Shown here one piece after another: positions 3,530 to 52,453 of a stretch of 64,000 nt of DNA (positions are counted from its first letter, which is position 1; each line of letters begins with the position of its first letter). Below the pieces are notes generated by a model. That model saw nothing but the letters and a program-made list of their open reading frames with translations, ran no database searches and was not told the DNA's origin. The position numbers and the translations under genes were made by a program. Source of the stretch: Prosopocoilus inquinatus (Eukaryota > Arthropoda > Insecta > Coleoptera > Lucanidae); the NCBI GenBank assembly GCA_036172665.1, contig CM069875.1:21049806-21113805 (forward strand), in the 5' to 3' direction.

Positions 3530-3597
3530 ATTGTAGTATTTAGTGGAGTGCAAGCGAGCACACATTTCAGTTTCACATAGTTGTTGATTGATTCACA

Positions 3598-4921: not shown

Positions 4922-5028
4922 TAAATATTTATTAACTACAACTGTAAACATACAATACAATACACAATAAATGAATTTTACAAATTAATTTATTTACTTT
5001 CTAACAGAACTTATAAATAAAACATACT

Positions 5029-8429: not shown

Positions 8430-8597
8430 TTTAATAAGCACTATCACGTTCACTACGTTCAATAAGTTGGTAAACTCAATCTGAGGGTCAACCGTCGTCT
8501 GCGGGTATCAAATTAAACATCTCCTTAAATAGGTACATATTCAATAACAGGTTGCGTCAGGGTTATTTCAAAACAATTACATTTGTGTCACCGCGCT

Positions 8598-9529
8598 TCA
8601 AGGTCCGTTACGAGGTCACCTCAGTCATTTTAAGGTCGCCTCAAGGTCATCCCAAGGTCACCTCACGGTCATTTAAAGGTCACCTCAGAGTCATTTCAAG
8701 GTCATTTCAAGGTCACCTCGAGGTCATTTCAAGGTCATCTCAAGGTCATTTCAAGGTCACCTCAAGGTCATTTCAAGGTCACCTCGAGGTCATTTCAAGG
8801 TCACCTCAAGGTCATTTCAAGGTCACCTCGATGTCATTTCAAGGTCACCTCAGGGTAATTTCAAGGTCACCTCAGTCATTTCAAGGTCACCTCAAGGTCG
8901 TTTCAAGGTCATCTCAAGGTCATTTAAAGGTCACTATCAACGTCACCTCAAGGTCATTTCAAGGTCACCTCAAGGTCATTTCAAGGTCACCTCAAGGTCA
9001 TTTCAAGGTCACCTCAAGGTCATTTCAAGGTCATTTGAAGGTCATTTCAAGGTCACCTCAAGGTCATTTCTAGGTCACCTCAAGGTCATTTCAAGGTCAC
9101 CTCAAGGTCATTTCAAGGTCATTTCAAGGTCACCTCAAGGTCATTTCAAGGTCATTTCAAGGTCACCTCAAGGTCATTTCAAGGTCATTTCAAGGTCACC
9201 TCAAGGTCATTTCAAGGTCATTTCAAGGTCACCTCAAGGTCACCTCAAGGTCACCTCAAGGTCATTTCAAGGTTACCTCAAGGTCATTTCAAGGTCACCT
9301 CAAGGTCATTTCTAGGTCACCTCAAGGTCATTTCTAGGTCATTTCAAGGTCACCTCAAGGTCATTTCAAGGTCATTTCAAGGTCACCTCAAGGTCACCTC
9401 AAGGTCATTTCAAAGTTACCTCAAGGTCATTTCAAGGTCACCTCAAGGTCATTTCAAGGTCACCTCAAGGTCATTTCAAGGTCATCTCAAGGTCACCTCA
9501 AGGTCATTTCAAGGTCACCTCAAGGTCAT
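8598..9529. repeat. 11-bp-period array of AGGTCA half-sites (direct repeat, spacing 5)
   Basis: About 930 bp of near-perfect tandem repeat. The 22-bp unit is AAGGTCATTTC followed by AAGGTCACCTC, so AGGTCA recurs every 11 bp with 5-bp spacers TTTCA and CCTCA. Roughly 80 hexamers are present, most preceded by TCA, giving TCAAGGTCA. AGGTCA is the nuclear-receptor half-site, and TCAAGGTCA is the extended monomer site of the FTZ-F1/SF-1 and ERR classes. The array has an open reading frame only because of its periodicity. It lies in the receptor gene downstream of exon 2, in an intron. Confidence 0.93.
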
Positions 9530-11159: not shown

Positions 11160-11897
11160 CTTCGTTGACGTTACATTTACTCTTCTTAAAACATAATAAT
11201 TCTAACAATGTACCATGCAGATTAAATCTAAAATTAGACGTGTAAATGCAAAATTTCATTAGTAAATGTCATGCAATAATAGACCCTCATGTTAAGGTTT
11301 TATGCACATCTGCAAGCAAAGTACGGTTTATTGTAATATACTAGAAAACAAGACAATGTGATTATAAATTAATGATGACGATGTTGTTAAATGCATGTCT
11401 TCACGTCGTCGTTATTTTAACCGGCTTTGCAATTAATTAACTCCAGCGCCACTTTTAACGAGATTTTAACGTAAACATCGCGGATTAATAATCGTAATGG
11501 TTTTATTATAGCGGAGCTTTGTTGTTGTCGAAGAGCTTTTTGAAACGCGACGTTGGATGAGATTAAATTAGGAACGAGGCCATATAAAAATCGAAAGCAA
11601 AATAATGCAGCAGAGCTTTCAAAATGTAGGTACAGTGGCGAACAATACAATCCGGGCAGGTTATTTCGACAATATAAACCTGCCATTAATATTTTTAGCG
11701 TTTGATATACCATACACCACTAGTAATTCTGATGCTTAACATAAATTTTACTAATAATATTTCGTACTTATTTTGTACTTTGGCAAGATGTTTTAAGTTC
11801 CGCGTAAAAAATATATGTATTAACTTCTCCAAGTGAAATGTGCATAAATGGAAGAGTTGCCGCGAGATTCCAGCTTATTAAGTTTGACATTTAAAAC
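11160..11897. other. Intronic AT-rich sequence, nothing recognised
   Basis: No supported ORF, repeat or RNA gene. The open frame at 11417-11713 on the minus strand has no recognisable motif. Confidence 0.5.
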
Positions 11898-11910
11898 CTT
11901 TCCTTTTACG

Positions 11911-12083
11911 AACAGATAAAATAGCGACATCTTACGATCGCTTTTTGACCTGACATTGCAGTAGGATAGACAAATTGAAGCGGATTTGCTCCTAATAAGT
12001 CCCCCATGCAAGGCGGCCATGCTTGCTGTCAAAGCATAATGAAAGTTAAATAAAAAAACGATTTGCACACATTTTTTTAAAAA
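11911..12083. mobile_element. Short copy of the hammerhead satellite (retrozyme family) with 13-bp target duplication
   Basis: About 130 bp match the 312-bp monomer of the array at 39751 (shared landmarks ATAAAATAGCGACATCTTAC, GCAGTAGGATAGACAAATTG and GCATAATGAAAG). The tail then switches to the inverted strand of the same family (AACGATTTGCAC). A direct repeat CTTTCCTTTTACG flanks the insert at 11898-11910 and 12084-12096. The hammerhead part of the monomer is missing. Confidence 0.75.
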
Positions 12084-12099
12084 CTTTCCTTTTACGTTT

Positions 12100-13790
12100 T
12101 GACAGACACATAGTTTCAATAAAGATTTCTATAAATACACATATGTCAAATTTTTGTCCAGATTTTAATGTACGCTGCCGTAAGTATCAAAAATATTTTC
12201 TCTAAAAATGAAATCAATTAGCTGCCTACCTTTAAAATATATCTACAACTTTAATATACAGCGACCTCCCAAAAGTTTGCATCACATGGAACTACTATTA
12301 GAACTACTATTAGTTTTTTTTTTAACATTTTGGGCTCAGTTCGATAACCGAATGTAAATAGGGGAAATAGAGTAAACATTTTTTTTAGTATGGCAAAAAT
12401 GGCAATCATTTAAAATTCGAACATTTAAAAAATGTAATGCTTTGGAATTGTAGGAAATTTTTAAAATATGTCGCTTAGTTCTTGGTTCTTGGTTTTTAGA
12501 CATTGGTGGCATAATATTCGAAAAAAAAGGATTTTTTTTCTTTTCTCAGTTTAGTTCAATATTTGAAATAAATAGTAAATGACATAAGTATAGTTTGTTC
12601 TTGGGTTCTTAACTATTATATGCACAAGAAAATTTGAGACGATTTATCCAGTTTCAAATTTCGCATAAGCACACTGAAAATTGCAAGAACTGTATACACT
12701 TTCTATTTTAGATCAGTTTAATATCCGTACTTATAAAATCGACATTTTTCAAGTTAGCTGTGAATAATCTCAGGATATTTGTATGGATATTCACTGTTGC
12801 TTCGTCTCCTGAAACGCGCACGCTCGTCGCCAGTTCAAGAGCGCCCGACTATTGATGCCATGAATATAACAAATGCAAAGTATGCGATCGGGATACCGAT
12901 ATTATGTGCCTACCAAACGTGCCACTTATGAGGATGAGATTGAATTCCATATTTTGATCCGATATTTGGCTATGGATATTGTCAAAAAAGTACTGATATT
13001 TATCCTGAATAAAAAGAGCAAGCGATTCTTGCAATTTTTGGTCCATTTATGCTAAATTTGAATTATTAGTATTGCGGTTTCAAGAATCAAAAAAGGTAAC
13101 ACACAATTTTAGGTACAAAAAACCTCTTTTTGTAAACATGTGGTAATAACAATCTCAGATCCCTTAAGCAGAGTGAAGTAAAAAGTAGAGAAATAAAATG
13201 AATGTTTTAACAAACATTGTTATTAGGTTTGTGCAACAACTCAATTATAAAGTGATTGTTATTTGACATATTTCAATTTCTAAAAATATTATAAATATAG
13301 TCATTATTTTAAAGCATAAAATAAAAATGTAATTATGAAAACAAAGAAGTAAAATAATGAAATAAAAATGTAACTACGTAATAAAAAAGTAACAATGGAA
13401 TAAAAACGCCAGATTTGACATGTCACTCGCACTTGATGATTTAAATTAAAAACTTGTTGAGGTATTGTAAAAAGTAATGCATGAAACTCATTAAAAAGCG
13501 TCTTTTTTACTCGTGAATTTACACTACTCGCTTCATTCCTGTGGTAAATTTCTCGTTCGTAAGCAAAGACATGCTTTATAAACTCATTTTTAATTATCTG
13601 TGGTGTCTGCCCAAAGAGGTCCTAAGTCATAGACTTGTTAGGACTTCAGGAGCGAGAGTGTATTTTTTGTGTGTAAAGTGTTTCATGGCTTTGTTACTTC
13701 CAAACCTCCTCGCCGTTGAAAGGGAAGCAGCGTCGAATTATATCCCCAACACTGAAGCATACCTGAAGTGAGTAACGACCACCCCCGAGA
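12100..13790. other. Intronic non-coding stretch
   Basis: AT-rich sequence. Short open frames at 12849-13055 and 13541-13771 lack motifs and splice context. Nothing else is supported. Confidence 0.5.
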
Positions 13791-25461: not shown

Positions 25462-27104
25462 TTAAATATTACGTATAATTAAACTATTACAAATTCTATC
25501 TCTTTTATTAGCTCCGGCATTGTGTCCTCTTTGGGGATGTATTACTTGGTTCTCATGGTTTACCAAATCTACATGTAAATCTATATTTTGCAATTCATCA
25601 TTACGTAGTAAACAAATATTATGCAGTACACTGCAAGCCATGACGAATTCAGGTATTAAATCAACACGTTCCATATCGAGAACAGACAGCAAACTTCTAA
25701 ACCTTCCTTTAAGTAATGCAAATGCACGTTCAATAACCATTCGTGCAGAAGAATGACAAAAATTATAATTCTTTTGTCTATTTGATAAATGACCATTGTC
25801 CCGAAATGGTACCATTAAATGCTCATGGACACTGTAAGCTGCATCCCCAATTATATGGCTACCATTAGGAAATTTTTCTGCATTGTCTAAGTAACTATTC
25901 ACTTCTGATAAGCGAAATATTCTCTGGTCATGTACTGAGCCCACGTGCCCAGTGAAACAATGAATAAATTTCCGCTCATGGTCACACACAGCCTGTTAAT
26001 AAAATCCCTTATTGACAAATCATGAATGAAATACAGACAAAAGTTACCTGTAATTGTATGCTATGATGTCCCTTCCTATTGACATATGATTCAGGGTTTG
26101 TATGTGGTGCTTTTATGTTTATGTGAGTGCCGTCAATTGCACCTATTACTTTTGGGAATCCACTAATTGCTGCGAATCCAAGCATAATTTGTTCAGCTTT
26201 GTCTTTATGTGGCCATGTAATAAATATAGCAGACAATTTTACAAGTGCTTTTGTTACTCGTTTTACTGCTCTTAATGCAGTACTTCTTCCGACATTAAAC
26301 TTTTCACAAATGGACCTATATACAGCATTTAGTGAAAAAGAAGATAAAAACAGAAAAAATTTCAATTAGAAATAGATAACACACCGGTAGGAATCTGGAG
26401 TCGCCATTTTCCAAAGAGCAATCATGAATTGTTTTTCAGCAGATATAGTTTTATGTCCAGGAATTTGCCTTAATAGTGAAGGTTTTATCAGATGCAAAAT
26501 ATACAAAAATGTTGCTCTCTTCATTCTAAAAAACAATAAAAAATAATACATTGCTTATACCAAGGACCAAGATATTTTTGTAAATATTTTTACATGAAAA
26601 TAATTAAAGATGAATAGTTGTTAAACTTAAAAGGACAGTATTTAAAATTCGAAGTAGCATTCAACGTTTCACTCCTGACAAAGCTATCAGTTGATAGTGA
26701 AACATTGAGTGCTACTTCTAACTTTAAATATTTCCGTTAAAGTTTAAAAACCATTTATTTACAATTTTCATCAGACGAGAGTTCACTTCACTTATGAAAA
26801 TAAACTAATACCTGAAATGTGATTGGAATTCTTCATCATTATATGATGGTATTATTTTTTCTACGTAATTTTGTAGATGCAATTTTGGCTTCATGATGCA
26901 TTTTTGAAAATATGTTTTTATATGTTCAAAGTCATCGATATTTTCCTCTTCATCGTCAAAAACAAATTCTAATAACGCTAATACTTTAAAGCACAATAAG
27001 CCGATTATTTCATCTCTCTCCATTATTACCATTGATTTTGATTCGTAACCTAACAAACGCAATTCATTACGCACACAACGGCCAAAAGAAACACTTTTGC
27101 TCAT
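25462..27104 (-). CDS. Harbinger DDE transposase (HARBI1-like), four exons, apparently intact
   Basis: Minus-strand exons 27104-26812, 26525-26385, 26315-26048 and 25992-25462, all with GT-AG introns. They total 1,233 nt, exactly 411 codons, with no internal stop. The DDE residues are D in GAIDGTHINIK, D in IIGDAAYSVHEH, and E in VIERAFALLKGRF. The N-terminal part has the EKQFMIALWKMATPDSYR helix and the helix-turn-helix-like VGRSTALRAVKRV. It would cut and paste the element at 3-bp targets. Start choice is uncertain: ATG 27104 lies 98 bp inside the element end; ATG 27023 is also possible. The host gene HARBI1 derives from this family. Confidence 0.9.
26625..26790. mobile_element. Truncated Penelope-type terminal repeat with degenerate hammerhead
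   Basis: An inverted repeat (arms about 26625-26671 and 26697-26747) surrounds CTCCTGACAAAGCTATC, then GATAGTGAAACATTGAGTG. This resembles the hammerhead region of the Penelope element at 33263, but the core reads CTGACAA rather than CTGANGA. The tail ACAATTTTCATCAGACGAGA matches the Penelope tail at about 33353. It lies in transposase intron 1. Confidence 0.6.
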
Positions 27105-30469: not shown

Positions 30470-30543
30470 AGTTTAAGTTAGAAATAAGAATTTAAGTACA
30501 AAGTTTTTTTAATCACAAACCGGACAGAAAAATGAAGAGAACA

Positions 30544-30585
30544 CACTCAACGTTTCGCTATAGATTTATAGCTTCGTCAGGAGTG
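30544..30585 (-). ncRNA. Hammerhead-like motif, left Penelope repeat
   Basis: Identical 42-nt counterpart of 33263-33304, on the minus strand. See that entry for the stem assignment and the extra unpaired A. Confidence 0.5.
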
Positions 30586-30723
30586 AAAAAAAGTAAATAA
30601 ACAAGTCCTGAAGAGAAACGAAAAGGTAACATGATTTTAAACTAAAAACGAGTTGTCCGGAATAAAGAGAAAAGTAACTAGAACTAAATTAAAACTATTT
30701 TTTTTTTAAATTAATTGACAGAT

Positions 30724-33060
30724 CTATATTCTGTTTAAAGAGTCTAGAAAACTACAAAATATGTCATTTAAATTTTCAAAGTCCATATGTTTATTAATAG
30801 AATTTGGAGACATTTTAATTTTACACATTTCTATGAAACGTCTTTTAAAAATATTAAATTCACTGTACAAAATGTCAGTATTATCAAAATCAAAATTATG
30901 ATTATTTACTAATGAATGCTCTACAAGCATTGAATAATTTTGATTATTTTTTTGAATATGATATTTAAGTTGGTCTAAACGTTTTTTTAAATTTTGGCTC
31001 GTTTCACCTATATAAACAGAATTACAATTTGAACATTTGATTTCATAAACCACGTTAGGTTGTTTTAATTTAGGTATTTTGGTTTTTAAATTCGAAAAAA
31101 TTAAATTTAAATTATTCACAGATTTACTGGCTAAAATTAAATTATGTTTTTTGAAAATGTGTTTAAATGTATTGTGTAATGGTTCAATATAAGGCAAAGA
31201 TATATATTTATGATTCGAAGTTTGTCTAATGTTATTAGAGACATTTGAATTTTGTAAGTTTTTAATAGGATTTTTAATTACTGATTCAATAAGATTTATT
31301 AGATAAGAATTTTGAATAAGAGTTTTCTTTATTAAATTTAAGTTATCATAAATGAAAACTGTATCAGAAAGTAAAATAGCTCGATCTGTTAATGAAATAA
31401 TAGTTGCAATTTTATAATTTTTGGGTGTGTACGAGTGAAAATTTATGTACCTACCTGACCAGGTAGGTTTATGAAACCAATTAGTAATTAATTTACCATT
31501 CTGTCTGATAATATTTACATCAAGAAAACTCAATGAATTATTATTTTCTTTTTCTACTGTAAATTGTAATCTATTATGAAAAGAATTAAATTTATTTAAA
31601 ACAAAATCTACCTTATCAGAAGGCAAAATCAGTAAAATGTCATCTACATAACGAAAATATAACGTTAAATCGAATGATAAAGAGTTAATAACAGATTTTT
31701 CTAGTTCTTGCATAACAATTTCAGTTAAAGCCGGAGATAAAGGAGAACCCATTGCTGTTCCAAAAATATGTTTATAACATTTATCAAAACATAAATCAAC
31801 TATATCTAAAAAGTTACCTTTGGAAATATCAGTAAAATCTTTAATCTCTAACCACCTATCATTAATACTTTTTAAACCTAAATCTTTAGGAATGTTAGTA
31901 AATAAACAAATAACATCTAAAGAAATTATAATGCAATTATTTGGTACAGTTATTTGTTTTAATTTTTCTACGAGTTCAAAAGAATTTTTTATAAAATATT
32001 CTGATTTACTAGTAACCTGAGTAATGATTTTTGAAATAAATTTAGATAAGAAATATGGAGAAGAACCAATAGTGGAAACTATAGGACGAAAAGGTGTATT
32101 AGGTTTATGAATTTTTGGAATGCAGTATAATTTAGGAAATATGGGATGTTGTACTTTAAGAGATTTAGCAACAATATTACTAATTTCAACGGATTTCTCT
32201 ATCTTATTAATAATACTGAAAGTTTTACGTTGATAAGATTTGGTGGGATCGTTAGCTAATTCTACATATGTATTATTATCAGACAACATAGTTTGAACTT
32301 TTGAAAAATAATCAGTTTTATCAATTAAAACAGTTACATTGCTTTTATCAGCTGTAGTAACAATAATATTAGGATTATCTTTAAGAAATTTTTTACAAGA
32401 CAAAAGATCTCTAATAAGAATCTTATACTTTGATTTTTCAAAAGTTTTATCAATATTTCTAATATAATTTAAAAAATTAGAACAAAATTTATTTCTTATT
32501 TGTATTTTTGAAGGTGAATCTAAAGATTTAATACCAAACTCTAAGCTACTTAATACTTTTAAGAAATCTACTTGTTGTTTATGAAAATAAGGTAATGAAA
32601 ATTTTTTGCCTAAAGCGAAAATGTATTTTAAATTTGACGGAATCTCAGTTTTTGTATAATTTACAAGCCACTTATTTATTATATTTTGATCAAATTTAAT
32701 GTAAAAATTTTTATCTCTAATAGAAATAAGATTATCTAACTTTTTAATCTGTGTTAATCGAATTTTATTAAAATACCTTTCATTTTTTTGATTTTTAAAA
32801 TTTAGAAAATTAGTCAATGTGATATTATCAAGAAAATTACTTAACTGACCTAAGGTATAATCTAATTTCCAAGTTAATTTGGCAAGAACTTTGAAAGTTA
32901 CCTCTATTTCATATGAAAGAATTTTATTAGCAAAATCTGATACGTATCTGTCAATTTTGTGACATGACATACCGTACGCTCTTTTTAAAGGTTCAATTAT
33001 ATGACGAGGGAAAACTCCCTCTTTCCTACATTTAAGTAAAAAGAGCTTACGATTTTTCAT
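30724..33060 (-). CDS. Penelope reverse transcriptase with GIY-YIG endonuclease, intact
   Basis: A single 778-codon frame from ATG 33060 without interruption. The N-terminal third is basic and helical. The RT core shows KIHKPNTPFRPIVSTIGSSP, then SLDVICLFTNIP (motif A), GTAMGSPLSP (motif B) and YFRYVDDILLI (motif C, YVDD). The C-terminal GIY-YIG nuclease has VYEIKCSNCNSVYIGET with the CxxC that precedes it in Penelope proteins, then NLKKRLDQ. This combination defines endonuclease-bearing Penelope-like elements, related to telomerase RT. It would copy element RNA and nick the target. Low GC and Asn/Lys richness match surrounding DNA. An intact frame suggests recent activity. Confidence 0.95.
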   Translation of the reverse strand: MKNRKLFLLKCRKEGVFPRHIIEPLKRAYGMSCHKIDRYVSDFANKILSYEIEVTFKVLAKLTWKLDYTLGQLSNFLDNITLTNFLNFKNQKNERYFNKIRLTQIKKLDNLISIRDKNFYIKFDQNIINKWLVNYTKTEIPSNLKYIFALGKKFSLPYFHKQQVDFLKVLSSLEFGIKSLDSPSKIQIRNKFCSNFLNYIRNIDKTFEKSKYKILIRDLLSCKKFLKDNPNIIVTTADKSNVTVLIDKTDYFSKVQTMLSDNNTYVELANDPTKSYQRKTFSIINKIEKSVEISNIVAKSLKVQHPIFPKLYCIPKIHKPNTPFRPIVSTIGSSPYFLSKFISKIITQVTSKSEYFIKNSFELVEKLKQITVPNNCIIISLDVICLFTNIPKDLGLKSINDRWLEIKDFTDISKGNFLDIVDLCFDKCYKHIFGTAMGSPLSPALTEIVMQELEKSVINSLSFDLTLYFRYVDDILLILPSDKVDFVLNKFNSFHNRLQFTVEKENNNSLSFLDVNIIRQNGKLITNWFHKPTWSGRYINFHSYTPKNYKIATIISLTDRAILLSDTVFIYDNLNLIKKTLIQNSYLINLIESVIKNPIKNLQNSNVSNNIRQTSNHKYISLPYIEPLHNTFKHIFKKHNLILASKSVNNLNLIFSNLKTKIPKLKQPNVVYEIKCSNCNSVYIGETSQNLKKRLDQLKYHIQKNNQNYSMLVEHSLVNNHNFDFDNTDILYSEFNIFKRRFIEMCKIKMSPNSINKHMDFENLNDIFCSFLDSLNRI

Positions 33061-33262
33061 TCTAGTAATTTTAATTAAATATTAGAATAAATTTTGCACA
33101 GTACCTTATTTTGGTGCCCGTAGTAAAAAAAAAAAAAGTAGCTTTAATAGTTCTCGTTACTTTTATTCCGAACAACTCGTAGTTTAGTTTAAAAATCATG
33201 TTACCTTTTCGTTTCTCTTGACGACTTGTTTCTCTTGACAACTTGTTTATTTACTTTTTTTC

Positions 33263-33304
33263 ACTCCTGACGAAGCTATAAATCTATAGCGAAACGTTGA
33301 GTGT
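33263..33304 (+). ncRNA. Hammerhead-like ribozyme motif, right Penelope repeat
   Basis: Stem I CACTC (33263-33267) pairs with GAGTG (33300-33304). Core CTGACGA (33268-33274), stem II GCTATA/TATAGC (33276-33281, 33286-33291), then GAAA (33292-33295) and CGTT. Stem III would be only A-C/G-T, as in Penelope hammerheads that act as dimers. One extra unpaired A (33275) lies between the core and stem II, so activity is uncertain. Hammerheads in Penelope terminal repeats are established. Confidence 0.55.
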
Positions 33305-33959
33305 GTTCTCTTCATTTTTCTGTCCGGTTTGTGATTAAAAAAACTTTGTACTTACAATTTTCATCGGACAAGAACAAACTTCAATTATAAGGATTTAGTT
33401 GTAACTCAACGTTGTAATTCATTTATTCATTTTAACTTTTTAAATAAAATTTTCAATTTGCTTGACACAAAATAACTTAAAAGTGTATACGCAAAATTAG
33501 CACTAAAGACCTCTCTCCAATGAATTGTTTAATCTTGTTTGTTGTGAACTTGTGCAAATGTCATTACACATACAAAGGTAGTTACAATTAAATGCAATTA
33601 TCCTAGGGTCGAAGCTGTCCCAGATGTTTGAACTGCAACGACTAAATTACGTAACATGATGAAATAACTCGGTCAACTGATAAGTAAATCAACGTTAAAT
33701 TTAACTGAATGTAATCTGCTCGTTCGAGAAAGGAAAATTAAATTTTTGATTTTTGATTTCACTTTTTCGCAAATGGTGTTCAGGGTATTCGATTAAAGAG
33801 GTAGACCCAAAAACTTCTCTTCTGTGCTGAGCTTTTGTTAAAATTTATTAGCTTCAGCATTTAAAGATTAAGTTACGAATTCGTTCTATAACATTGAATT
33901 AACAACAAAATTGTTTTTAATCTTTAACCAGATGATATGAAAATTGCATACAATGCTCA

Positions 33960-34110
33960 ACATTGCACCACCGTTAATAACTTCATCAACCGATAGTGAA
34001 ACGTTTAACATTCTTTGTAATTCCACAGTGTCCAGTTAAAGGTTAAAAACAATTTTTTTTTCAATTTTCATCGGATATAAGAGCCGACTTCAGTTATTAT
34101 TAAATTAAGA
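33960..34110 (+). mobile_element. Penelope-type tail remnant
   Basis: GATAGTGAAACGTTTAACATTC, GTCCAGTTAAAGGTTAAAAA and TCAATTTTCATCGGAT recur in the order seen at 26690-26780 and near the Penelope right end. The hammerhead core upstream of GATAGTGAAAC is lost. Confidence 0.55.
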
Positions 34111-35600: not shown

Positions 35601-38600
35601 AAAAAGTAAAGGTATAACAATTGTCATCACCTCATCACAGTTCATAATAGTTACTTTAGAACATGGCAAAGTTGAAATAAAACATTAACCATTTACCACT
35701 GAAAACTGAAGTACAGGAAAATCACGAAACTAAATTCAACAAGTGGACATTTCTTAAGGTGCATGTGTAGATTAAATGACAGTTATCGGTGGCAAATTTT
35801 AAATGGTATTAATTACTTTTGAATTCGAAAAATGCATCAAAAATTCATGAGATGAATTTAAATTAAATTAAATTTCGAATGTCATATCGGAAATTCTTGA
35901 ATTTGAATGTCTTTTTCTTATATAATATATTTCTAGAAACAAACGACAATGTTGGGCTAAAGCATTACAATCTAAACTTTTTTTGAAATATTTTGTTATT
36001 ACTCATTTTTATTTCAATGAAATAGTAAAGTGTACTTTATATTTAGAAATTGATGTTCTTTTATTTGACAATAAAAGTTTTTGAACGTTCGGTCAAAGAA
36101 AACTAGAAGTTTTTGAAAACATAACTCGCAATTGCTTCTCTCGTATGATCACATGGTATGGCAATCCTGAGTGACAGTAGTCTGCTTAAAACGAGTGAAC
36201 TTAACCATATTTAAAAAAAAATTAAAGAAAGTCAAGTGTTGAGAGCCACTGAGTGCTAAAGAAATTAAAAAAAAAATACATTGTTATAGAAAGTATCTTT
36301 CAAATTTATCACAAAAATATTCGTTTTAGCTGCCAATGTATTTGTAGAAGGCACTATTCAGTAATATCTAAATATTTTTAGTATAATTAGTATTCACTTT
36401 TTCTTTTAACCCAACAGTGCGAGTCAAGATTAAAAACTAGGCTTTTTCATTCCTATATCAAAGCTGAGATACTAATCTAGAAAGTTATATTAGAACCACT
36501 AGATATTTTTGGGTAAAAATTCATTTTCATAAGTGCAGTGCATTATTAAAATAACGATGCAGAAAAACTTTAAATAGTTTATTATAATTTACATTATAGA
36601 GTTACATATTTATCTAAGAATTAAATTTGAAATTATGTGTTCAATAAAATTTTCATATAAAATCTGAATTATTTAAGGTTCAAATTAATATCAACTATTA
36701 AGTGTGATACATCATTGTAATCAGGAGAAAAAATGCTATCGAATAGAAATAAAAAGACATAAGTTGTGTTTAATTCATTCTCTCAATGGATACGAATTAG
36801 GCATTGATTCGTGCAACTTTTCTTCCATTTAACCGAATTTGTATCTCTTACGGTTTAGGAGATCCCTTCAGTGCACACTCAGTTTGAAACAGCCGGTATA
36901 TGGTCTGTCCAGAAAATATACAGGAAGAATAAAATGAAAACTGTAACTACTAGTGTTTGAATTTCTGATGAAACAGACGACAGATTTCTGCCGAAAAATT
37001 TAATAATAATTATATAATAATAATAATTTCTATACACAATACATATATACAATAGTTTCCCTGTTATAAATTATTCATTTTTTCAGTTAGTTTAACATTA
37101 TTAACATTCAACATTTTTGTCGTTTGTTTGTTAGGTTCTTTGAAAAACATGATTTGACAGGTAAGTACGCTCTCAGTAAATAGATAAAACAATGTTTCGA
37201 AAGAAACTTACAGAAATTTCAAAATTCTGGAAATATTCTTAATTAGCGATATTTGAGAACAGGCAACTACTTACTGAATCTTTCTTGATCTGGAAACGAT
37301 TGATTCGACTGAAGATGTTATTCTTAAAGGGGAGAACCCTTTCCGTAAGTATCTTTATTTAACATTATAAATAAATTTCACTCCTCTTACTTATTTCCAT
37401 AACTTTGGTTTAATGTTCCTTCTATACAATATCTACGTGACAGAATGATGAGAGCTCATAATGATCGTCGATTTGCTTTTCGGTCCATTTTCTACATGTA
37501 AATAAACTGTATCAAATTTATGTCGTTAATTCTTATTTTATATTTACTTGTTCTCCTTTTCTCTCTTAATTTCTTAATTCCACACATAAATTTTATTTTT
37601 CATATTTGCTCGGTATTTTAACCTGTTGACCCAACCGTCCAGTTTCATTGATAAATAAGTAAATAAATAAATGACTATTGAAAATGCAATAATTAAGAAA
37701 TACAGTTTTCAAAAATTGGACGAGAAAACATTCAATACTTGAATATAAATTTTTGGAACTTGACTATTTTGCATGAACTAAACAAATAAATAATTATAAT
37801 ATAATCAGTTTAAATTCATTAGTTTACTAATTGTAAAATTCGAAAAAAAGATCAGTTTACCAATTGTGAAACATCGTAAAATAATTTATTTCAAAATACA
37901 TAATTGGACAAAATAATAAAAAAAGACTTTCAAACTTTGCGTGTTGCTAGGCGCCTGGAATGTAGCAATGACCAGTGTTTCTAATTTATGAGTTTGCAAA
38001 AAACTTTTTTTGTCGTTACGAATTAGTATAAACAACATCGCGATGCCGGCATTCGTGTTCAGCGAAAGAAATTTAGACTTTTTAACAACGACTCCCACAC
38101 AGAGCAAATTAATTGACAGGGGTGCGTCTAACTTTCCTCGAGCTTTATTCAGTTTCAGTTAACTTTTTCTTGAACATTATAAGCTGACAGATTTAATATT
38201 AATTTCATTGAGAAACTAAATCTGAAAAGAATTTCCTTTTTTTATACTTGAACAACGAATATGCATTTGTTCAAATTTTATTCATATTTATGATTTGTCG
38301 TGTATTTGATTAATATTTAACTTAGAAAATTTAGTAAAACTTATCTTTGACTTCACCACTAAAAATTAAATCAATATTTTCAGCTGGTATTAAAGTGTCT
38401 TTTATTACAAGTCCCTTTTCATACATACAGCATCAGTAAATACCGATGACATTAAAGTATTGGTTAAGATAACTTTCACAGAAAAAGACTAAACTAGTTG
38501 TTTTTCTTCAATTATTCCATTTCCATTCCCAAATAATAGTGCGTAGCTGGGGAAATCGGGCATAAAACTTCTAATTCTAGACAACACATTCTTATGGAAT

Positions 38601-39737
38601 TTTCCTGTGTATTTTAAAATAAAATCACTTCACTGTTAAGCTATTCTTTATTGGTGTCCACGTGGTATACCGTAAAAGATAAATATCATCTGTTATTTCT
38701 CAATTTAATTTCAAGAATGTAGAAGCATGCTGCATCAGTAAAATTTAATATAAATCGATTTTAAAGAAGAGACGTTAAACCGGCAACAAACTTTCCAGCA
38801 TTGTGGCTAAAGTCAAGGCCTACCTATCAAAAAATTCAATATTCTGTTTTGAAAATCTCTGCAAGTGTCGATAAAATATTAATAGCAGAACATAAGCAGC
38901 AGCGAATTCTGTTTGGTTTATTAAATTATGTTATATGTGTGGTATGGTGAATATATGTATGTGTATTATTTGTTTACACAAATTAGTAAGCTTACCTCAA
39001 GACAAACTTAGGTGTACATCTGACTTTAGCTAAGAAGCTAAACTTGCTAATTTTTGTAAAACGAGTAAGCCTGTAACAGATGTGTTGGCTTTAGACTTTA
39101 GACAAATTAGACTGATGCCAAACTTAGTTAGATGCCTAATGATAAATATGCAAAGCGAATACCAGTTTAAGTAAGCTTGAGCCAAACTTTTAGTTCCGAG
39201 ACACCTTGTGTTTTTACTTTTCACTTCCTTTGAAAATTCAAACCGTTCATATTGAACTCGTTTTCTCTTTCGTTTTTTGGATCCAGTGCCTTTTGAGATG
39301 AGAAATCTCTACGACGATTGTACATACCTTCCTTACTTCATAAATTAGAGTAAAATGTGGTACACACAGCAGTAAGGTGTTATCAATGCGTCTGTTATTT
39401 TTTTTTTAATTTAAATTTACAAAAATATCACAAATGCGCGTTGTTAACAAAAGAACCTTTCCAAATAAGCTAAACTTGATAATGGGACAGAGCCTGTCGC
39501 TTATAAGAGATGGTTTATAAAAATCGGTGAATTTCATGAAAGTACTACCGCAGTCACAAAGCAGAAATCATTTTTGACACACCACTCAAAATGTTTCGGT
39601 TTAAATCCAACTTTGAATACAGACAATAAACCTATTTTTGCTTATTCGTAATTCATCGGAAATTGCTCGTATGACACTATGATTCACTTTTTTCTATTTT
39701 TGTTCCTCGGATAATTATGGCATTTTTAAGTACCCAA
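35601..39737. other. Intronic AT-rich stretch, nothing recognised
   Basis: Over 4 kb without a supported ORF, transposase or RNA gene. The open frames at 37886-38107 and 39030-39224 (minus) lack motifs. Confidence 0.5.
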
Positions 39738-39750
39738 TATAAATTTTTAC
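39738..39750. repeat. Target duplication TATAAATTTTTAC, left copy
   Basis: The 13-mer is repeated exactly at 41178-41190, immediately outside the hammerhead array. Confidence 0.85.
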
Positions 39751-39918
39751 ATATAAAATAGCGACATCTTACTATCGCTTTTTGACCTAACATTGCAGTA
39801 GGATAGACAAATTGAAGCGGGATTTGCTCCTAATGAGTCCCCCATGCAAGGCGGCCATGCTTGCTGTCAAAGCATAATGAAAGATTTTAGAAAAATTTTG
39901 TGCAAATCGTTTTTGATT

Positions 39919-40007
39919 GCAGTGAGAACCTCGAGCAGCCTCTGGACAGCTGTTTCAGCCCTGCTTGGGGCTTCTTCAGCAGAAACGTAGCTCGACATTC
40001 CCACTGC
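39919..40007 (-). ncRNA. Hammerhead ribozyme, satellite unit 1
   Basis: Minus strand: extended stem I (GCAGTG/CACTGC, GAA/TTC, TCGAGC/GCTCGA, TCTG/CAGA with internal loops), core CTGAAGA, stem II AGCCC/GGGCT with loop CAAGCA, GAAA, palindromic ACAGCTGT stem III, cleavage triplet GTC. All invariant core positions are present. Confidence 0.85.
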
Positions 40008-40230
40008 ATACCAAAAACGACTTGCCCAATTTATTCGCAATTGCGATGTAAGAGTGATGAACATATAAAATAGCGACATCTTACTATCGCTTTTTGACCT
40101 AACATTGCAGTAGGATAGACAAATTGAAGCGCGATTTGCTCCTAATGAGTCCCCCATGCAAGGCGGCCATGCTTGCTGTCAAAGCATAATGAAAGATTTT
40201 AGAAAAATTTTGTGCAAATCGTTTTTGATT

Positions 40231-40319
40231 GCAGTGAGAACCTCGAGCAGCCTCTGGACAGCTGTTTCAGCCCTGCTTGGGGCTTCTTTAGCAGAAACGT
40301 AGCTCGACATTCCCACTGC
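40231..40319 (-). ncRNA. Hammerhead ribozyme, satellite unit 2, core mutated
   Basis: Same stems as unit 1, but the core reads CTAAAGA instead of CTGAAGA. The conserved G5 is lost, so this unit is predicted not to cleave. Confidence 0.8.
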
Positions 40320-40542
40320 ATACCAAAAACGACTTGCCCAATTTATTCGCAATTGCGATGTAAGAGTGATGAACATATAAAATAGCGACATCTTACTATC
40401 GCTTTTTGACCTAACATTGCAGTAGGATAGACAAATTGAAGCGGGATTTGCTCCTAATGAGTCCCCCATGCAAGGCGGCCATGCTTGCTGTCAAAGCATA
40501 ATGAAAGATTTTAGAAAAATTTTGTGCAAATCGTTTTTGATT

Positions 40543-40631
40543 GCAGTGAGAACCTCGAGCAGCCTCTGGACAGCTGTTTCAGCCCTGCTTGGGGCTTCTT
40601 CAGCAGAAACGTAGCTCGACATTCCCACTGC
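40543..40631 (-). ncRNA. Hammerhead ribozyme, satellite unit 3
   Basis: Canonical core CTGAAGA, stem II AGCCC/GGGCT, GAAA, ACAGCTGT and GTC, with the extended stem I of unit 1. Confidence 0.85.
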
Positions 40632-41061
40632 ATACCAAAAACGACTTGCCCAATTTATTCGCAATTGCGATGTAAGAGTGATGAACATATAAAATAGCGA
40701 CATCTTACTATCGCTTTTTGACCTAACATTGCAGTAGGATAGACAAATTGAAGCGGGATTTGCTCCTAATGAGTCCCCCATGCAAGGCGGCCATGCTTGC
40801 TGTCAAAGCATAAAGAGGCTGCTCGAGGTTCTCACTGCAATCAAAAACGATTTGCACAAAATTTTTCTAAAATCTTTCATTATGCTTTGACAGCAAGCAT
40901 GGCCACCTTGCATGGGGGACTCATTAGGAGCAAATCCCGCTTCAATTTGTCTATCCTACTGCAATGTTAGGTCAAAAAGCGATAGTAAGATGTCGCTATT
41001 TTATATGTTCATCACTCTTACATCGCAATTGCGAATAAATTGGGCAAGTCGTTTTTGGTAT

Positions 41062-41150
41062 GCAGTGGGAATGTCGAGCTACGTTTCTGCTGAAGAAGCC
41101 CCAAGCAGGGCTGAAACAGCTGTCCAGAGGCTGCTCGAGGTTCTCACTGC
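41062..41150 (+). ncRNA. Hammerhead ribozyme in the inverted satellite unit
   Basis: Plus strand. CTGAAGA at 41090-41096, GGGCT then GAAAC near 41108-41117, ACAGCTGT followed by C at 41124 as cleavage residue. Stem I strands 41062-41089 and 41125-41150 pair through four helices. Confidence 0.85.
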
Positions 41151-41177
41151 AATCAAAAACGATTTGCACAAAATTTT

Positions 41178-41190
41178 TATAAATTTTTAC
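41178..41190. repeat. Target duplication TATAAATTTTTAC, right copy
   Basis: Exact repeat of 39738-39750. Confidence 0.85.
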
Positions 41191-42560
41191 GTTTAAAGTA
41201 CTTTGAGACCAGTTTAGACTAAAAGAAACCATCTTGTCTAAGCTAATTATTGAAGAAAATACAGCCTTTTACTGATTTTTTATTTATATAGGAGTCGAAA
41301 TGTTGAGACCTTACTCCGGGACGCACTATTTTCTTTCTGGTTATGACGAGTACTGTTCTTAGACTCTTTAGGTCTCGTTCGCACGAGCTTGTTTTAAAAC
41401 GAAAAGCTGAAAAGCTGTATGTGAGCATGTCACAAAAAGCACTTCAAGAGAATTATGTCTCTTTTAAGAAGTAGCATCACCCGCTACTACTATTTATGGA
41501 GCAGATATTTACAGTTATAATTAATACCAATGATACATACAGTGCGTACGTAATGTTTGGATAATCAAAATATAACGTAAACTATTGATTAACCAATAAC
41601 TAATTGATACAATACAGTTATCTCAAAGGAAATCTTCAAAATGCCCGACAACAACTGCTAAATTAAAATACTGGCAATTTTATTGCTCTCAAAACCAAGT
41701 AAAATATACTTGAAATTTTAATTGTTTACTCTATAAATCAAACGAACAAGATTTTAGTAGCTGTTTGAGTGCCTCAATTAACCTAACAGTAACTTAAATT
41801 ACAGCTGATTTAGTTTTCACAAACATTGGTTAGCAAGTAAACAGGTTTCTAGGACACGCTATATGTCGTCAACTATTACGTCACTCCCAAAATAAATTGC
41901 CAACCAGTTACGTTGTTGGTACTTGCTCGTCGTCGGAGACACGGTCGACACGCTATCCCTTATTTCGTTACTTAAAAGTTGCTGGTTGGCAAGGAAAGGG
42001 GCTGGTAATAAACGTGGTAAATTGGGAAGAAAGAACAGCTACAACGTTACTTAAAAGTTGCTGGTCGGCAAGGAAAGGAGCTGGTAATAAACGTGGTAAA
42101 TTTTGAAGAAAGAACAGCTACAACGGTTACTTGTCAGGAACGTACAAAGCTGCGGGCGATAAAAAAGGAAGTGGTGACAAAAAGCCGAGACTCTATAAGC
42201 CTGAGAGCAGAGATATTAGATACGGCTCTATTTCAATATCTGCATATCTTTCACTTTTTAAAAATGCACCAAATAGTACTGGCGTCGAAAGAGTGGTCTG
42301 CAAAGTTGTATTCGTTTTGTCTACACATACAAATAAACTCTCCAAACTCAAATTATCAATACGAAACGAAACACAACTACGCTCTTTCACCATTTGCCCA
42401 AGTAATGAGAATGCCGGAATGGACGCCGGTAGTGCGCAATTCAGAACACTACGTGCGATAATAAGTAGGAAAATATGCTCGGAAGAATACGCATGCGTGT
42501 GCGTTAGAAATGTGCGAACCTAAGAATAAAGAAGTAATAGATATTGTCGACTTCACGGAA
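41191..42560. other. Intronic stretch with one tandem duplication, no gene
   Basis: Mostly AT-rich. Overlapping open frames at 41897-42523 cover the 79-bp duplication and show no family motif. I make no gene call here. Confidence 0.45.
41967..42124 (+). repeat. 79-bp tandem duplication
   Basis: 41967-42045 and 42046-42124 share GTTACTTAAAAGTTGCTGG through AAGAAAGAACAGCTACAAC with only a few changes (GGTTGG/GGTCGG, GGGGCT/GGAGCT, TTGGGA/TTTTGA). Confidence 0.85.
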
Positions 42561-43109
42561 TAGAAGATATGAACTATCACTTGTGAAAGTTACGATATTG
42601 CAAAGGCACCTGTAACATTTGGATTTGGAGTAGCAACCAAGGCAGAAATTAATTCGGTTTCCAAAAATTCTAGGGATTACCCTATATTCTGTCAGCGAAA
42701 ATTTCTATACATATTAAGTTCTTGGGGATATTCTGGTTTACGTTCTTGGAACCAGGGCGAATTAATTTGTGCCCTTCGTTCTGATCGTCTTTTTGACACT
42801 TGCAGACACTTTATTAAGCTACAGATTTTTTTTGTAATTGAGATTAAAATTAACCACTTACTGAAACTTTGAAGAAGTGAATGAAGGACATTTGGAATAT
42901 TTACGTTCCGTTAATTTTTTTCCTTTGCGTTACTTTATAAGCTATAAAATAAAACTCCACTTTTCAGTTTTCATTACTAATTTTCTCGAAAATCTTCTTA
43001 TGGAAGGTGTCAAAATTTTTATAGCATGAGGCGTGTTCTTTTTGCCACAAATCTCTTCTCAACTCAGATAAACGTCATTTCCGTTGGCATGAACAAGTAA
43101 GTATGAACT
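42561..43109 (+). repeat. 541/549-bp direct repeat flanking the LINE, left copy
   Basis: Runs from TAGAAGATATGA to GTATGAACT. Nearly identical to 45979-46519; it differs at about six bases and an extra GATCGTCT near 42784. It ends precisely at the LINE poly(A) side. Confidence 0.9.
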
Positions 43110-45978
43110 TTTTTTTTTTTTTTTTGAGAGGTCGGGGAATCTTCAAAAGACGTCCGGTATTCCGCCGGACGTGCTGGATTCACTAGACTCTTGTCCGGTG
43201 CCTACCAGCTAAACCCCTATCCTCTTTGTGAATTCGAGACGGGGGGAACCGCCTTTCGGCATTACTTCCTCCGCCCCTTTTGTCCTCCCTTCTCAGCCCT
43301 TCATCCCCTTCATTCTTCCTTCTCATCCTCCTCTTCCTCCTCTTCCTTCCACTTCCTTCCTCCTCTTCATTCTACCTCTTAATCCTTCCTCTTCATCCTT
43401 CCTCTTCCTTCCTCCTCTTCTTTCCTCTTCTTTTTCCTCTTCGCCCCCTTCATCCTCTTCGTCCTCTTTCTCCTTTACTCCACTTCACCCCTCTCCTTCC
43501 TCTATGTCGCCATCCTCGGCAATTCTTTTCTCATCAGCAGTTTTCTGTGTCATGATGTTCCTCATCAAGCCCGTAATTGCCATGAAGTCCTCTTTGCTCC
43601 TCAGGAGGATGCCAGCTACATTTCTTTTGGTTAGCTTTTCTCGGACTGTGAGTTCCGCACGCAGTCTGTACCCTTCCCATCTCGGGCACTCAAACAAAGT
43701 GTGCTCGGCGTCGTCTTCCGTTTTTCGCAATACCAACAGGCGGCGGTCTGTTTTCTTCTAATGTCCCTTAAATAGCTGCCGAAAACCCTGTGGCCGGTTA
43801 TCATCTGGGTGACAAAATAGTCCACTTCTCCCGTCTTCCTGTTACACCAGGCCTCGATGTTGTTGATGAACACCCTCGCCCATCCCTGGTATTCCTCCCA
43901 TGCGGTTTGCCATTTGCGGTACAGGTCTTTCCTGGCTGCAGCCTTCACCGAGGTGCCTTGCTCGTAAATCATCGTTCGCTCCTCTATCTGGAGCTTGATC
44001 GGTGGAATCCCCGCGACAGCCAGTACTGCCTGGGTGGAGACAGTTCTGTACGCGGACGCCACTCTAATGGCAGCAAGTCTGTTTATCCTTTCAAGCTTTT
44101 TTTCGTAGAGGTTGAACCTAGTGGCCTTCCCCCAGATTGGCGCCGCGTACAGCAGTATGGACGACAAGACGGCAAGGACTTTCCGCTTCTTTGCGCCTGG
44201 TCCCCCGACGTTCGCCATGAGTCTTGCTAAGGCATTGTAGGCCTTCTGGGCCTTTGCACAGGTTTTGTCAACGTGCTTCGTCATGCGTAGGTCGGGATCC
44301 AGGTGTACGCCCAGGTACTTGATTGAGGGATAGTTCCTGATATCTGTGTCGTCCACTCTCAGGGTCAATTCCTTCAGATTCCTCTTTCCTGCGAGGATCA
44401 TTACTTCAGTTTTGCCCGTTGCCAATTCTAGCCCGATTTGGTCGAGCATGTTTTTCACCCTGTCCACTGCGAGTTTAGCTCTTTCCTCCATCATCACAAC
44501 CGTCCTCCCGCTGACTATTAAGGCCAGGTCATCCGCGTAGCCTACAATGGTAACTCCCGGTCCGACATCCAAATCCAGGACCTGGTTATACATTACATTC
44601 CACAGGGTAGGTCCCAGGACAGATCCCTGTGGAACTCCACAGGTAATGCTCCTCAGTTTTCCCCCAGGCGTTAGGATGCATCTGTCTGTGAGAAAGGATT
44701 CGACCATAGTGGTGAGTTGCCGGTCTATATTGTGCCTGTATAGTTCTTTGATAATCTCCGGCCACGGTGCGGTGTTGAAAGCATTTTTGATGTCTAAGGC
44801 CACCATCACGCAGTAGTGTCTATTTTTATCCGCCATGCGGCGTATTTCGGCAACTATGTCTCCCACCTGTTGGAGGGCCGTTAGGGTCGATCTACCAGAT
44901 CTAAAACCATGTTGCCTATCACTGAGTGTCCCCTTTTCCTCTAATTCCTTGACCAGCCTGTTTTTAAAGAGCGTTTCCAGGACTTTCCCAGCTACATCCA
45001 GGAGGCACAAAGGTCGGTACCCAATCGGGTCATCAGCGTTTTTCCGAGGTTTTTCTACGAGGACTAACCTCGCCCTCTTCCATATTTCAGGAAAAGTACC
45101 CGACCGCCAGCAGTCGTTGTAGATTTGGAGGAAAACGTCAGGCGTCGTCGACGCCGTCGCCTTGACCACCTCCGGAGGTAATAGGTCCGGGCCAGTCGCC
45201 CTTCCGACCTTGATCTTTCTGATGGCCTCTTCGAGCTCCTCTTCGCCAAAAGGAGCGCTCTGCCCCCCCTGGTTTCCCTTTGCAGGTCTCCATTTCCCAC
45301 ACTGTTTTGTGGGGAAGAGCTTGTCGGCTATTTTCCCCTCTTCCTCCGCGCTGAGTCGCGTGGTGGCTCTCAGATTTAGCTTTCTCGTGGCTATTTTATA
45401 GGCCTGTCCCCATATATCGTTCTCTAGTTCGTCTCTTAGGGAGTCCCAGCAGGCAGCCTTTCGCTTAGCAATTTCCTTTTTGAGGGCACGTCTGGCGGTC
45501 TTATATTCATCCCAAGCCACGTTTCTTGCCTCCTGAGTTTTCCTATTTGCCCTTGTGGCCTCCCTCCTCTTGCGTACACATTCTTTGCGCATTTCAGATA
45601 TCTTTGCCGTCCACCAGTACACCGGGGTGCCCCTGTAGGTGGCTTTCTTCTTTGAGAGAAACTTGTTGCATAGCTCCTGCATGGCCCTTATTAGTGAGAC
45701 CGGGGTCTTCGGCTTCCGTGTGGTGCTTTGTTTCCACTCATTTGCCAGGCTTTGGATTCCTTCAGGGTTTGTCCTCCATCCTCTCGCGACATCGTCAGAA
45801 CAACGCTTCATCCCTTGGTCGCTAATTTCGAACAGGATTATCCTGTGGTCACTGAGGCTTTCCGCGTCTGTCGCTACCCTCCAGTGCCTGATTTTTCCTC
45901 CAATTCTAGTTGTCGCAAGGGTTACATCAATAATTGAGTGGCCTCTGGCATTTGAAAAGGTCGGTACCGATCCGCTGT
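43110..45978 (-). mobile_element. R1-like non-LTR retrotransposon, 5'-truncated
   Basis: Minus-strand LINE with a poly(A) tail (poly-T at 43110-43125 on the plus strand). Its 5' end at 45978 is truncated inside the endonuclease domain. The 3' UTR includes a CTTCCTCCTC-type low-complexity stretch (about 43265-43500). It is bordered on both sides by the 541/549-bp direct repeats. Confidence 0.9.
43485..45978 (-). pseudogene. LINE ORF2: endonuclease C-terminus, reverse transcriptase, zinc knuckle; one frameshift
   Basis: Reads leftward from 45978. First the endonuclease tail (HSIIDVTLATTR, SDHRIILFEI), then RT: ATGPDLLPPEVVK, PIGYRPLCLLDVAGK, HGFRSGRST, VALDIKNAFNTAPW (motif A), GVPQGSVLGPTLWN, and VGYADDLALIV (motif C). 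The thumb and tail follow with WCNRKTGEVDYFVTQMITGH. A C-terminal zinc motif (CWYC, then HTLFEC) is split by a one-base shift near 43730: the frame to 43631 and the frame 43736-43485 are its two parts. R1/TRAS-like RTs have this order. The domain copies element RNA at a nicked target. Truncation and frameshift make this copy inactive. Confidence 0.9.
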
Positions 45979-48752: not shown

Positions 48753-49637
48753 TGTCACGTGGTTAGGGGTAGGTAGCGGGTTCTCAGTGGTAGAGCTTGA
48801 AAACACAGTTTACCAAAACAATGTATACCTTTATTAAATGAATATTTTTATCTATCGGCGGACGATCTTTAAATGTGCGGGGGTGCCTTTTCGTAATTAT
48901 CGGAAATCGCGACGGGTCGGCTGCGACAGCGAGGATGAGGAATCCCTCCGTGCTGGGGTTGAAGAGACCCGACGATTCGACTAACCGGATCCAGGGCAAT
49001 CTCGAGGGCTGCAACAATTGCGATGAGATGTCCTGATGAGCACGGCGTCGGTGAGGATGCCTCCGTGGAACGGGCAGCGTCCTGATGAGGGTGGCGGCGG
49101 CAAGGCGTCGGTGAGGATGCCTCCGTGGAACGGGCAGCGTCCTGATGAGGGTGGCGGCAACAAGGCGTCGGTGATGATGATCCTTCTTGGGAACGGCAGC
49201 GTCCTGATGCGGGTGGCGGTTGCACGGCGTTGGTGAGGAAGGTCCTCCTGGGGAAGTTGGCACTAGGCCTACTTGAGTCGACGGCTGGTTCGACTGCGAG
49301 GGCGGCTGCCCTTCTTACAGTAGGCACTAAGCCTACCGGAGTCGGGTTCGACTGTCTTCCCATCTTCTTCCGCACGTTATATAGGCGAAAATCTGTCTAT
49401 TCGACTGTTATCACATGTTTCTGTGTTCTCCTTTCGTCACCTGTTGTATTAATTTGTCCCACATATAGCGCATGCCACCGATGTTTTGTTATGAAACGTG
49501 AACTGCTTATAACTTAGATTTCGCAAGATTGCTGTCTTAATTGTTCTACTTTATTCCTCGCGGAAATATTTCGTCGCGACTCCTTTACATTTTATATTTA
49601 TTACTTTTAGGCTAAAAATTAAATCCTTATCGTGACA
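48753..49637 (-). repeat. LTR, 3' copy of the young element
   Basis: 885 bp. Contains a TATATAA box (minus strand, about 49377-49383), an AATAAA signal near 48833-48838, and a 60-bp GC-rich tandem unit. No difference from the other LTR was noticed in the stretches compared. Confidence 0.9.
49044..49223. repeat. 60-bp GC-rich tandem units inside the LTR
   Basis: Units start at 49044, 49104 and 49164 with GGCGTCGGTGAGGATG-type starts; the third is degenerate. The same structure repeats in the other LTR at 51860, 51920 and 51980. Codon-like frames here are by-products. Confidence 0.85.
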
Positions 49638-51568: not shown

Positions 51569-52453
51569 TGTCACGTGGTTAGGGGTAGGTAGCGGGTTCT
51601 CAGTGGTAGAGCTTGAAAACACAGTTTACCAAAACAATGTATACCTTTATTAAATGAATATTTTTATCTATCGGCGGACGATCTTTAAATGTGCGGGGGT
51701 GCCTTTTCGTAATTATCGGAAATCGCGACGGGTCGGCTGCGACAGCGAGGATGAGGAATCCCTCCGTGCTGGGGTTGAAGAGACCCGACGATTCGACTAA
51801 CCGGATCCAGGGCAATCTCGAGGGCTGCAACAATTGCGATGAGATGTCCTGATGAGCACGGCGTCGGTGAGGATGCCTCCGTGGAACGGGCAGCGTCCTG
51901 ATGAGGGTGGCGGCGGCAAGGCGTCGGTGAGGATGCCTCCGTGGAACGGGCAGCGTCCTGATGAGGGTGGCGGCAACAAGGCGTCGGTGATGATGATCCT
52001 TCTTGGGAACGGCAGCGTCCTGATGCGGGTGGCGGTTGCACGGCGTTGGTGAGGAAGGTCCTCCTGGGGAAGTTGGCACTAGGCCTACTTGAGTCGACGG
52101 CTGGTTCGACTGCGAGGGCGGCTGCCCTTCTTACAGTAGGCACTAAGCCTACCGGAGTCGGGTTCGACTGTCTTCCCATCTTCTTCCGCACGTTATATAG
52201 GCGAAAATCTGTCTATTCGACTGTTATCACATGTTTCTGTGTTCTCCTTTCGTCACCTGTTGTATTAATTTGTCCCACATATAGCGCATGCCACCGATGT
52301 TTTGTTATGAAACGTGAACTGCTTATAACTTAGATTTCGCAAGATTGCTGTCTTAATTGTTCTACTTTATTCCTCGCGGAAATATTTCGTCGCGACTCCT
52401 TTACATTTTATATTTATTACTTTTAGGCTAAAAATTAAATCCTTATCGTGACA
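51569..52453 (-). repeat. LTR, 5' copy of the young element
   Basis: 885 bp, apparently identical to 48753-49637. A TATATAA box lies at about 52193-52199 on the minus strand. Confidence 0.9.

Follow-up and report, generated by a model that had tools for sequence, protein, structure and literature searches.

A non-coding hammerhead retrozyme in Prosopocoilus inquinatus inserts as head-to-head arms with two fixed ends, resembling a Penelope-like element of the same genome

The locus at 39738-41190 of the window (the whole 64,000-nucleotide stretch of Prosopocoilus inquinatus DNA that was analysed) raises the question of how a hammerhead-bearing repeat came to lie between short duplications, and which enzyme put it there. 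The enzyme that moves animal retrozymes is an open question, for which PMC7229834 names Penelope-like elements (PLEs) 'a strong candidate' from co-occurrence and shared features. Here the insertion scars of both elements can be compared in one genome. On this evidence we consider it very likely that the repeat is a non-coding metazoan retrozyme copied in trans by a PLE reverse transcriptase (RT)/GIY-YIG protein, with both strands of the target priming. Feature coordinates are given in Table 1.

Table 1. Features of the retrozyme and PLE-family insertions in the window. Unit position 1 is the base 3' of the predicted ribozyme cut.
Feature	Position	Strand	Remarks
Target-site duplication, left	39738..39750		TATAAATTTTTAC
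Arm A	39749..40813	-	3.4 retrozyme units of 312 bp; outer (3') end lies at site 2, unit position 196
Hammerhead core, intact	39945..39979	-	H17 at 39945
Hammerhead, core CTAAAGA (G5 to A)	40257..40291	-	H17 at 40257; probably dead
Hammerhead core, intact	40569..40603	-	H17 at 40569
Arm B, inverted	40814..41177	+	364 nt, from unit position 2 through position 53 of the following unit; outer (3') end lies at site 1
Hammerhead of inverted copy	41084..41130	+	predicted cut after 41124; Rfam Hammerhead_1 below gathering
Target-site duplication, right	41178..41190		TATAAATTTTTAC, then GTTT
Second retrozyme insertion, more diverged	11911..12077		two arms
Second insertion, left duplication	11892..11910		TAAAACCTTTCCTTTTACG
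Second insertion, arm A	12045-11910	-	unit 62-198, 96%
Second insertion, arm B	from 12054	+	unit 31 to about 54
Second insertion, right duplication	12078..12096		one mismatch to left
Whole PLE insertion	30495..33386		ends inverted; tail on the right end only
PLE ORF	30724..33060	-	778 aa, uninterrupted; RT (PF00078) and GIY-YIG (PF01541); candidate machinery
PLE duplications	30484-30494 / 33387-33397		one mismatch
PLE minimal hammerhead, right end	33267..33298	+	CTGACGA ... GCGAAACGTT; predicted cut after 33298; assigned from core motif
PLE minimal hammerhead, left end	30580-30549	-	motif as at 33267..33298
Short head-to-head PLE-family insertion, tailed	26604..26793		duplication ATGAAAATAA
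Short head-to-head PLE-family insertion, tailed	33903..34098		duplication ATT[G/A]AATTAA

A preliminary description of the locus had reported a 312-bp tandem repeat lying, with an inverted copy, between exact 13-bp duplications. Both statements hold: TRF finds 3.4 copies with a 99% match in arm A, and the two flanking 13-bp words are identical and absent from both strands of the rest of the window. Among random pairs of points, 2 of 19,929 shared a word of at least 13 bases. The G+C content of the element is 0.43, i.e. under 50%. Its span of 39738-41190 contains no ORF of at least 150 aa and lacks the RT and GIY-YIG coding region by which a PLE is recognised, and no LTR-like direct terminal repeat was seen apart from the units themselves. 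An Rfam match to the microRNA MIR8742 (40768-40926; 72.1 against a gathering threshold of 130) was rejected, as it corresponds to the palindrome at the junction of the arms.

The hammerhead is made up of stem I, the core CTGAAGA, stem II (AGCCC/GGGCT), GAA, ACAGCTGT and a final C. The array units carry it on the minus strand; the inverted copy has it on the plus strand. Its stem III has 2 bp with a palindromic tetraloop and the ribozyme is of type I. Stem II is closed by an A10.1-U11.1 pair; in natural hammerheads this is usually G-C. A generic hammerhead descriptor matched three times in the 64 kb, always inside retrozyme units, and over 100 Markov-1 control windows its strict form gave 0 matches and its loose form 0.05 per window. 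The core, stem II and palindromic stem III described earlier are confirmed; the earlier statement that every unit folds into a hammerhead applies to three of the four sites in the insertion and fails for the one at 40291-40257, which reads CTAAAGA. In the covariance-model search proposed in the same description, Rfam hammerhead models had no match at the gathering threshold over the whole window and none at E<=10 over 38000-43000; with an isolated stretch of 141 nt, covering the plus-strand copy only, RF00163 (Hammerhead_1) matched 41084-41130 at E=5.6e-4 and 23.8 bits, below the gathering threshold of 34.

From these motifs the hammerhead is predicted to cleave itself. Variable positions amount to 8/1080 in the core, 42/6699 in the ribozyme region and 227/24715 in the rest, so that the core is only slightly less variable. 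The 35-nt hammerhead with A, C or T at H17 has 12,917 copies in the genome, and that with G at H17 has 39; a count by eye of 100 listed genomic places gives 13 with A and 87 with C at H17. The presence of A in 13/100 places, set beside only 39 copies with G, suggests that a tolerated base spreads and a forbidden one does not.

The genome-wide search for copies that had been suggested returned a large family. In the host assembly (650 Mb, 173 contigs) the exact 35-nt pattern occurs at 6444 + 6473 places, a high and dispersed copy number, against 0 for the reversed control, and the sampled insertions carry flanking duplications. Similarity searching of the same assembly found 112 candidates; the 40 that were scored gave 101 matches, spread over 12 contigs. 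A query with the second window copy returned 0 candidates, presumably since very common words are skipped. Viral contigs scanned for one exact hammerhead string gave 0 matches.

Insertions were studied in two samples. For the similarity-ranked sample 35 loci were taken and their arms mapped, which gave 22 insertions in the arm tables. Dropped from the counts were L060 and L061 (flanks and duplication identical to L057), five single-arm cases (L047, L051, L053, L064, L065) and, as complex or diverged, both complete clusters of L033 and L063, L040, L058 and the second cluster of L034; clusters cut by the end of a stretch were left out (L049, L050 with two, L055, the first of L033, L038 and L057, and the second of L064). 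L037 enters the duplication counts and is absent from the arm tables, and L038 enters the arm tables and the duplication-score control and, having no duplication found, is absent from the length table. Because this first sample was ranked by similarity, a systematic sample was taken from 20 stretches around the first 21 listed hammerhead places on contig C1. It comprised 22 complete insertions, one partial cluster of L087 being left out.

The insertions follow a common rule: two arms stand head-to-head, with one outer end about 54-60 nt beyond the ribozyme cut in the downstream direction and the other about 194-200 nt beyond it. In the similarity sample 21 of 44 outer ends fall at unit 49-71, 22 at 190-210 and one elsewhere, and 21/22 insertions have one end of each kind. 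The lone exception is the second copy in the window, whose end maps to unit 81 because its flank resembles the unit and the alignment runs on; its outer ends are otherwise like those of the first window copy, and no 5' end lies at the cut. The target of this second insertion, at 12076-12110, resembles unit 56-81 beyond the duplication, with a score reached by 10 of 4000 random stretches. The systematic sample contained 16/22 two-arm insertions with one end of each kind, two with one odd end (L087, L104) and four with a single arm, each of which had one fixed end. Where two of the 100 listed places were neighbours on opposite strands, no more than 1.5 kb apart, 18 cases were head-to-head and 0 tail-to-tail. 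Two complete insertions, L033 792-1869 and L063 690-1380, carry 200-type ends on both sides and stand outside the counts as complex.

The ends are bordered by duplications. A duplication score of at least 10 was reached by 22/23 two-arm insertions compared with 13/506 mixed-flank controls, and by 15 of the 16 regular two-arm insertions in the systematic sample. The median length is 13 bp (12-14 bp in 18/22; 10-15 bp in 20/22), the sequences differ at nearly every sampled locus, and T is the second base 3' of the duplication in 18/22. The two insertion sites of the window have TTTTACGTTT in common, which is absent elsewhere in the window. The target shows a likeness to the RNA immediately past the start at site 1, with the true register the best of 312 (5.45/10 against a mean of 2.77), and at site 2, in contrast, there is no such likeness. 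As the duplications were maximised, part of the site-1 likeness is microhomology, and we take it as a hint only of target-RNA pairing.

The window itself holds a candidate for the machinery, a PLE with an uninterrupted ORF, whose named relatives among the 120 best listed are insects. Its right end has an extension of about 33 nt (a 'tail'), and the Rfam hammerhead model had no match on the PLE end at 33220-33360. The three PLE-family insertions in the window have duplications of 10-11 bp, two of them with one mismatch. PLEs elsewhere are built alike: their pLTRs are inverted and mostly head-to-head, with a tail at one (PMC3846280), and tails are described for PLEs of rotifers (PMC3846280) and Anolis (PMC11167929). 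A 90-nt PLE end used as a query gave 1175 candidates genome-wide, of which 40 were scored. From these we assembled 14 compact copies, 11 picked for two closely listed arms and three from a set of 8 loci, excluding the window copy (L066), copies whose other end lay outside the stretch (L067-L070) and the complex C8:10487224-10487687 group. Twelve of the 14 are head-to-head; their BLAST ends, counted from the PLE cut, fall within +51 to +66 at one side and within +88 to +90 at the opposite side, and their duplications measure 12-14 bp. The 12/14 share is no rate because the choice favoured two-arm copies; the ends and duplications were unchosen. Of the others, L083 has two tailed ends with a duplication not found, and L084 is complex. 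The PLE duplication at L047, ATTAAACTTAAC, was read by eye, a script aimed at the untailed end having found none.

Further elements share the window. Polinton/Maverick-like pieces lie at 1506-7358, with one ORF matching PF04665 and further ORFs that we take to be integrase and DNA polymerase. About 930 bp at 8597-9529 consist of 11-bp TCAAGGTCA-type units, which to our eye resemble extended nuclear-receptor half-sites. An Rfam R2_retro_el match on the minus strand (43127-45811, 45.7 bits) lies downstream of an RT ORF that is presumably R1-like rather than R2. Identical overlapping ORFs with 60-bp tandem units occur in two copies 2.8 kb apart (48784-49375 and 51600-52191). The named relatives of a copia protein in the window, among the 120 best listed, are insects except one nematode, Trichuris suis.

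The retrozyme and the local PLE agree in the order of their arms, in having two start sites, one per end, and in the length of their duplications. These matching scars indicate that the PLE machinery most likely mobilises the retrozyme in trans, and the earlier suggestion of movement in trans thereby gains structural support. The retrozyme is also like PLEs in general in its head-to-head inverted ends with a second start site at one end (PMC11167929, PMC3846280), its duplications, its AT-rich target and a hammerhead upstream of the start sites. It is unlike them in having no ORF of 150 aa and a unit that is circularly permutable. Against the comparison, the second start site lies about 140 nt from the first in the retrozyme and about 33 nt in the PLE, and by eye there is no clear sequence likeness between their start regions.

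These data allow us to propose a mechanism, in which the PLE protein is the putative mobilising enzyme. The 312-nt unit RNA would fold into a long rod, with its type I hammerhead at the base, and be taken as a template, in trans, by the PLE-type RT/GIY-YIG protein. This enzyme would cut the two strands of the target at points 12-14 bp from each other, frequently immediately ahead of GTT. Each 3' end so released would act as a primer for reverse transcription, which would start near unit position 53-60 from one end and near 194-200 from the other. Joining of the two cDNAs would leave arms pointing outward between target duplications. A precedent exists in Anolis, where both strands are cut and extended by the PLE protein, which begins copying at internal RNA sites (PMC11167929).

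A different route to inverted arms is twin priming, a LINE-type, target-primed insertion using one linear hammerhead-cleaved RNA, in which the inverted arm reaches the RNA 5' end at the cut and the other arm stops at the second primer. This was our first reading of the window copy, whose arm B begins one base off the cut and whose arms abut in RNA terms with 13-14 nt missing between them; the 13-nt duplication matches the missing stretch at 9/13, as only 2/312 registers do. The sampled insertions speak otherwise. Of 44 arm 5' ends, 2 come within 6 nt of the cut (1.8 expected), 42/44 arms cross it (the two that stop short both belong to the second window copy, whose arms are short), and arm 5' positions generally do not abut. 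Chance twin priming, moreover, does not predict that both 3' ends are fixed. With no excess of 5' ends at the cut, twin priming was dropped as a general mechanism, and we hold it to be improbable. The crossing arms instead point to uncut or religated RNA as templates.

The template under the PLE-driven reading may be a circle or a multimer. In 22 insertions, divergence was 0.8% between the arms of one insertion, 0.8% between repeats within an arm and 1.8% between loci, and the low arm-to-arm value suggests that both arms usually share one RNA source. At L032 and L045, units that differ in their subfamily bases are combined in one arm. Single circles can therefore not have been the only templates, and one circular template per arm was set aside as a full account. 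In the predicted circular fold both start sites fall in unpaired stretches, in one terminal loop of the long rod (mean unpaired values 0.79 and 0.78 against 0.36 overall; equalled by 0.7% of random position pairs). Arm 5' ends cluster at unit position 248 (10/44 against 1.0 expected; e.g. L046, L048, L051 and window 40009), and 5/34 remain after removal of five loci with shared junctions. This position is a bulged A of the predicted rod and might mark where the RT stops, where the RNA is nicked at the bulge or where joining is favoured. An arm junction of 213/248 with a shared base change recurs at L048, L052, L056 and L059 between four different duplications, with the end types swapped between L048/L056 and L052/L059, and such composite insertions seem to have been copied again themselves.

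These composites bear on the idea that the repeat is a DNA transposon or a fold-back element in which a hammerhead just happens to lie. A near-constant duplication length and the recurrence of the 213/248 composite between different duplications are what such an element would show, but the two ends are unlike each other, with no terminal inverted repeats, some arms contain additional complete 312-nt rounds, the junctions are variable, and the 213/248 composite is seen with its end types swapped; we regard this explanation as very improbable. Even less credible, to the point of being negligible, is ordinary satellite DNA or a segmental duplication with incidental hammerhead and duplications. 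The units do stand in tandem, and L057, L060 and L061 have flanks and duplication in common, yet copies lie on 12 contigs among the scored candidates, between duplications that differ at nearly every locus, and have two fixed outer ends in head-to-head order. A reading that keeps the PLE as mover and makes the hammerhead an inactive passenger fares better and is still unlikely. Ribozyme mutants of the Anolis PLE left in vitro insertion unchanged (PMC11167929), and the core here is barely more conserved than the rest of the unit; the bias at H17, with 12,917 copies reading A, C or T (A in 13/100 listed) and 39 reading G, argues against it.

Within the favoured account of PLE-driven copying, we lean slightly towards a stricter version, in which the retrozyme spreads by obligate two-site Penelope integration. 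Its two start sites, on one terminal loop of the rod, would imitate the PLE end and tail, one per cut strand, and the ribozyme would supply circles or multimers that are intact across their own cut. Points against PLE-driven copying at large are the single-arm insertions, the 200-type ends on both sides at L033 and L063, the two tailed ends of the PLE copy L083, the slight difference in variability between core and rest, and the Rfam score below threshold.

The class assignment and the novelty of the family, both suggested earlier, are supported. As in the metazoan non-LTR retrozymes of PMC7229834, the element is a tandem non-coding unit of 150-450 bp (here 312 bp) with a type I hammerhead and a very short stem III (2 bp), a G+C below 50%, duplications longer than 4 bp and a highly self-paired RNA, and it coexists with hammerhead-bearing PLEs. 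It is a new family of this class. Abundant linear and circular RNA of unit length, with self-cleavage, is characteristic of metazoan retrozymes; for the present element 312-nt RNA of these forms is predicted. Unlike described metazoan retrozymes, it inserts as two arms placed head-to-head, whose outer ends are fixed; the words 'inverted', 'head-to-head' and 'orientation' are absent from the main text of PMC7229834, and no report of such scars for retrozymes was found among the titles and abstract openings listed in searches of the non-subscription literature, including PMC7229834 and PMC7761336. Hammerheads inside satellite repeats also occur in pDo500 of Dolichopoda cave crickets (PMC2837043) and in newts (PMC7229834). 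What is new here is the insertion anatomy of the retrozyme, the element itself being a new family of a known class. To our knowledge, a two-ended PLE-like insertion is not known for pDo500 or the newt hammerhead satellites.

Given that the scars agree, the proposed partnership of retrozyme and PLE can be tested in vitro using one protein and two RNAs. Two-site scars also offer a cheap genomic signature to seek in other animals. If obligate two-site integration were general, all animal retrozymes would be parasites of PLEs, recognisable by their scars.
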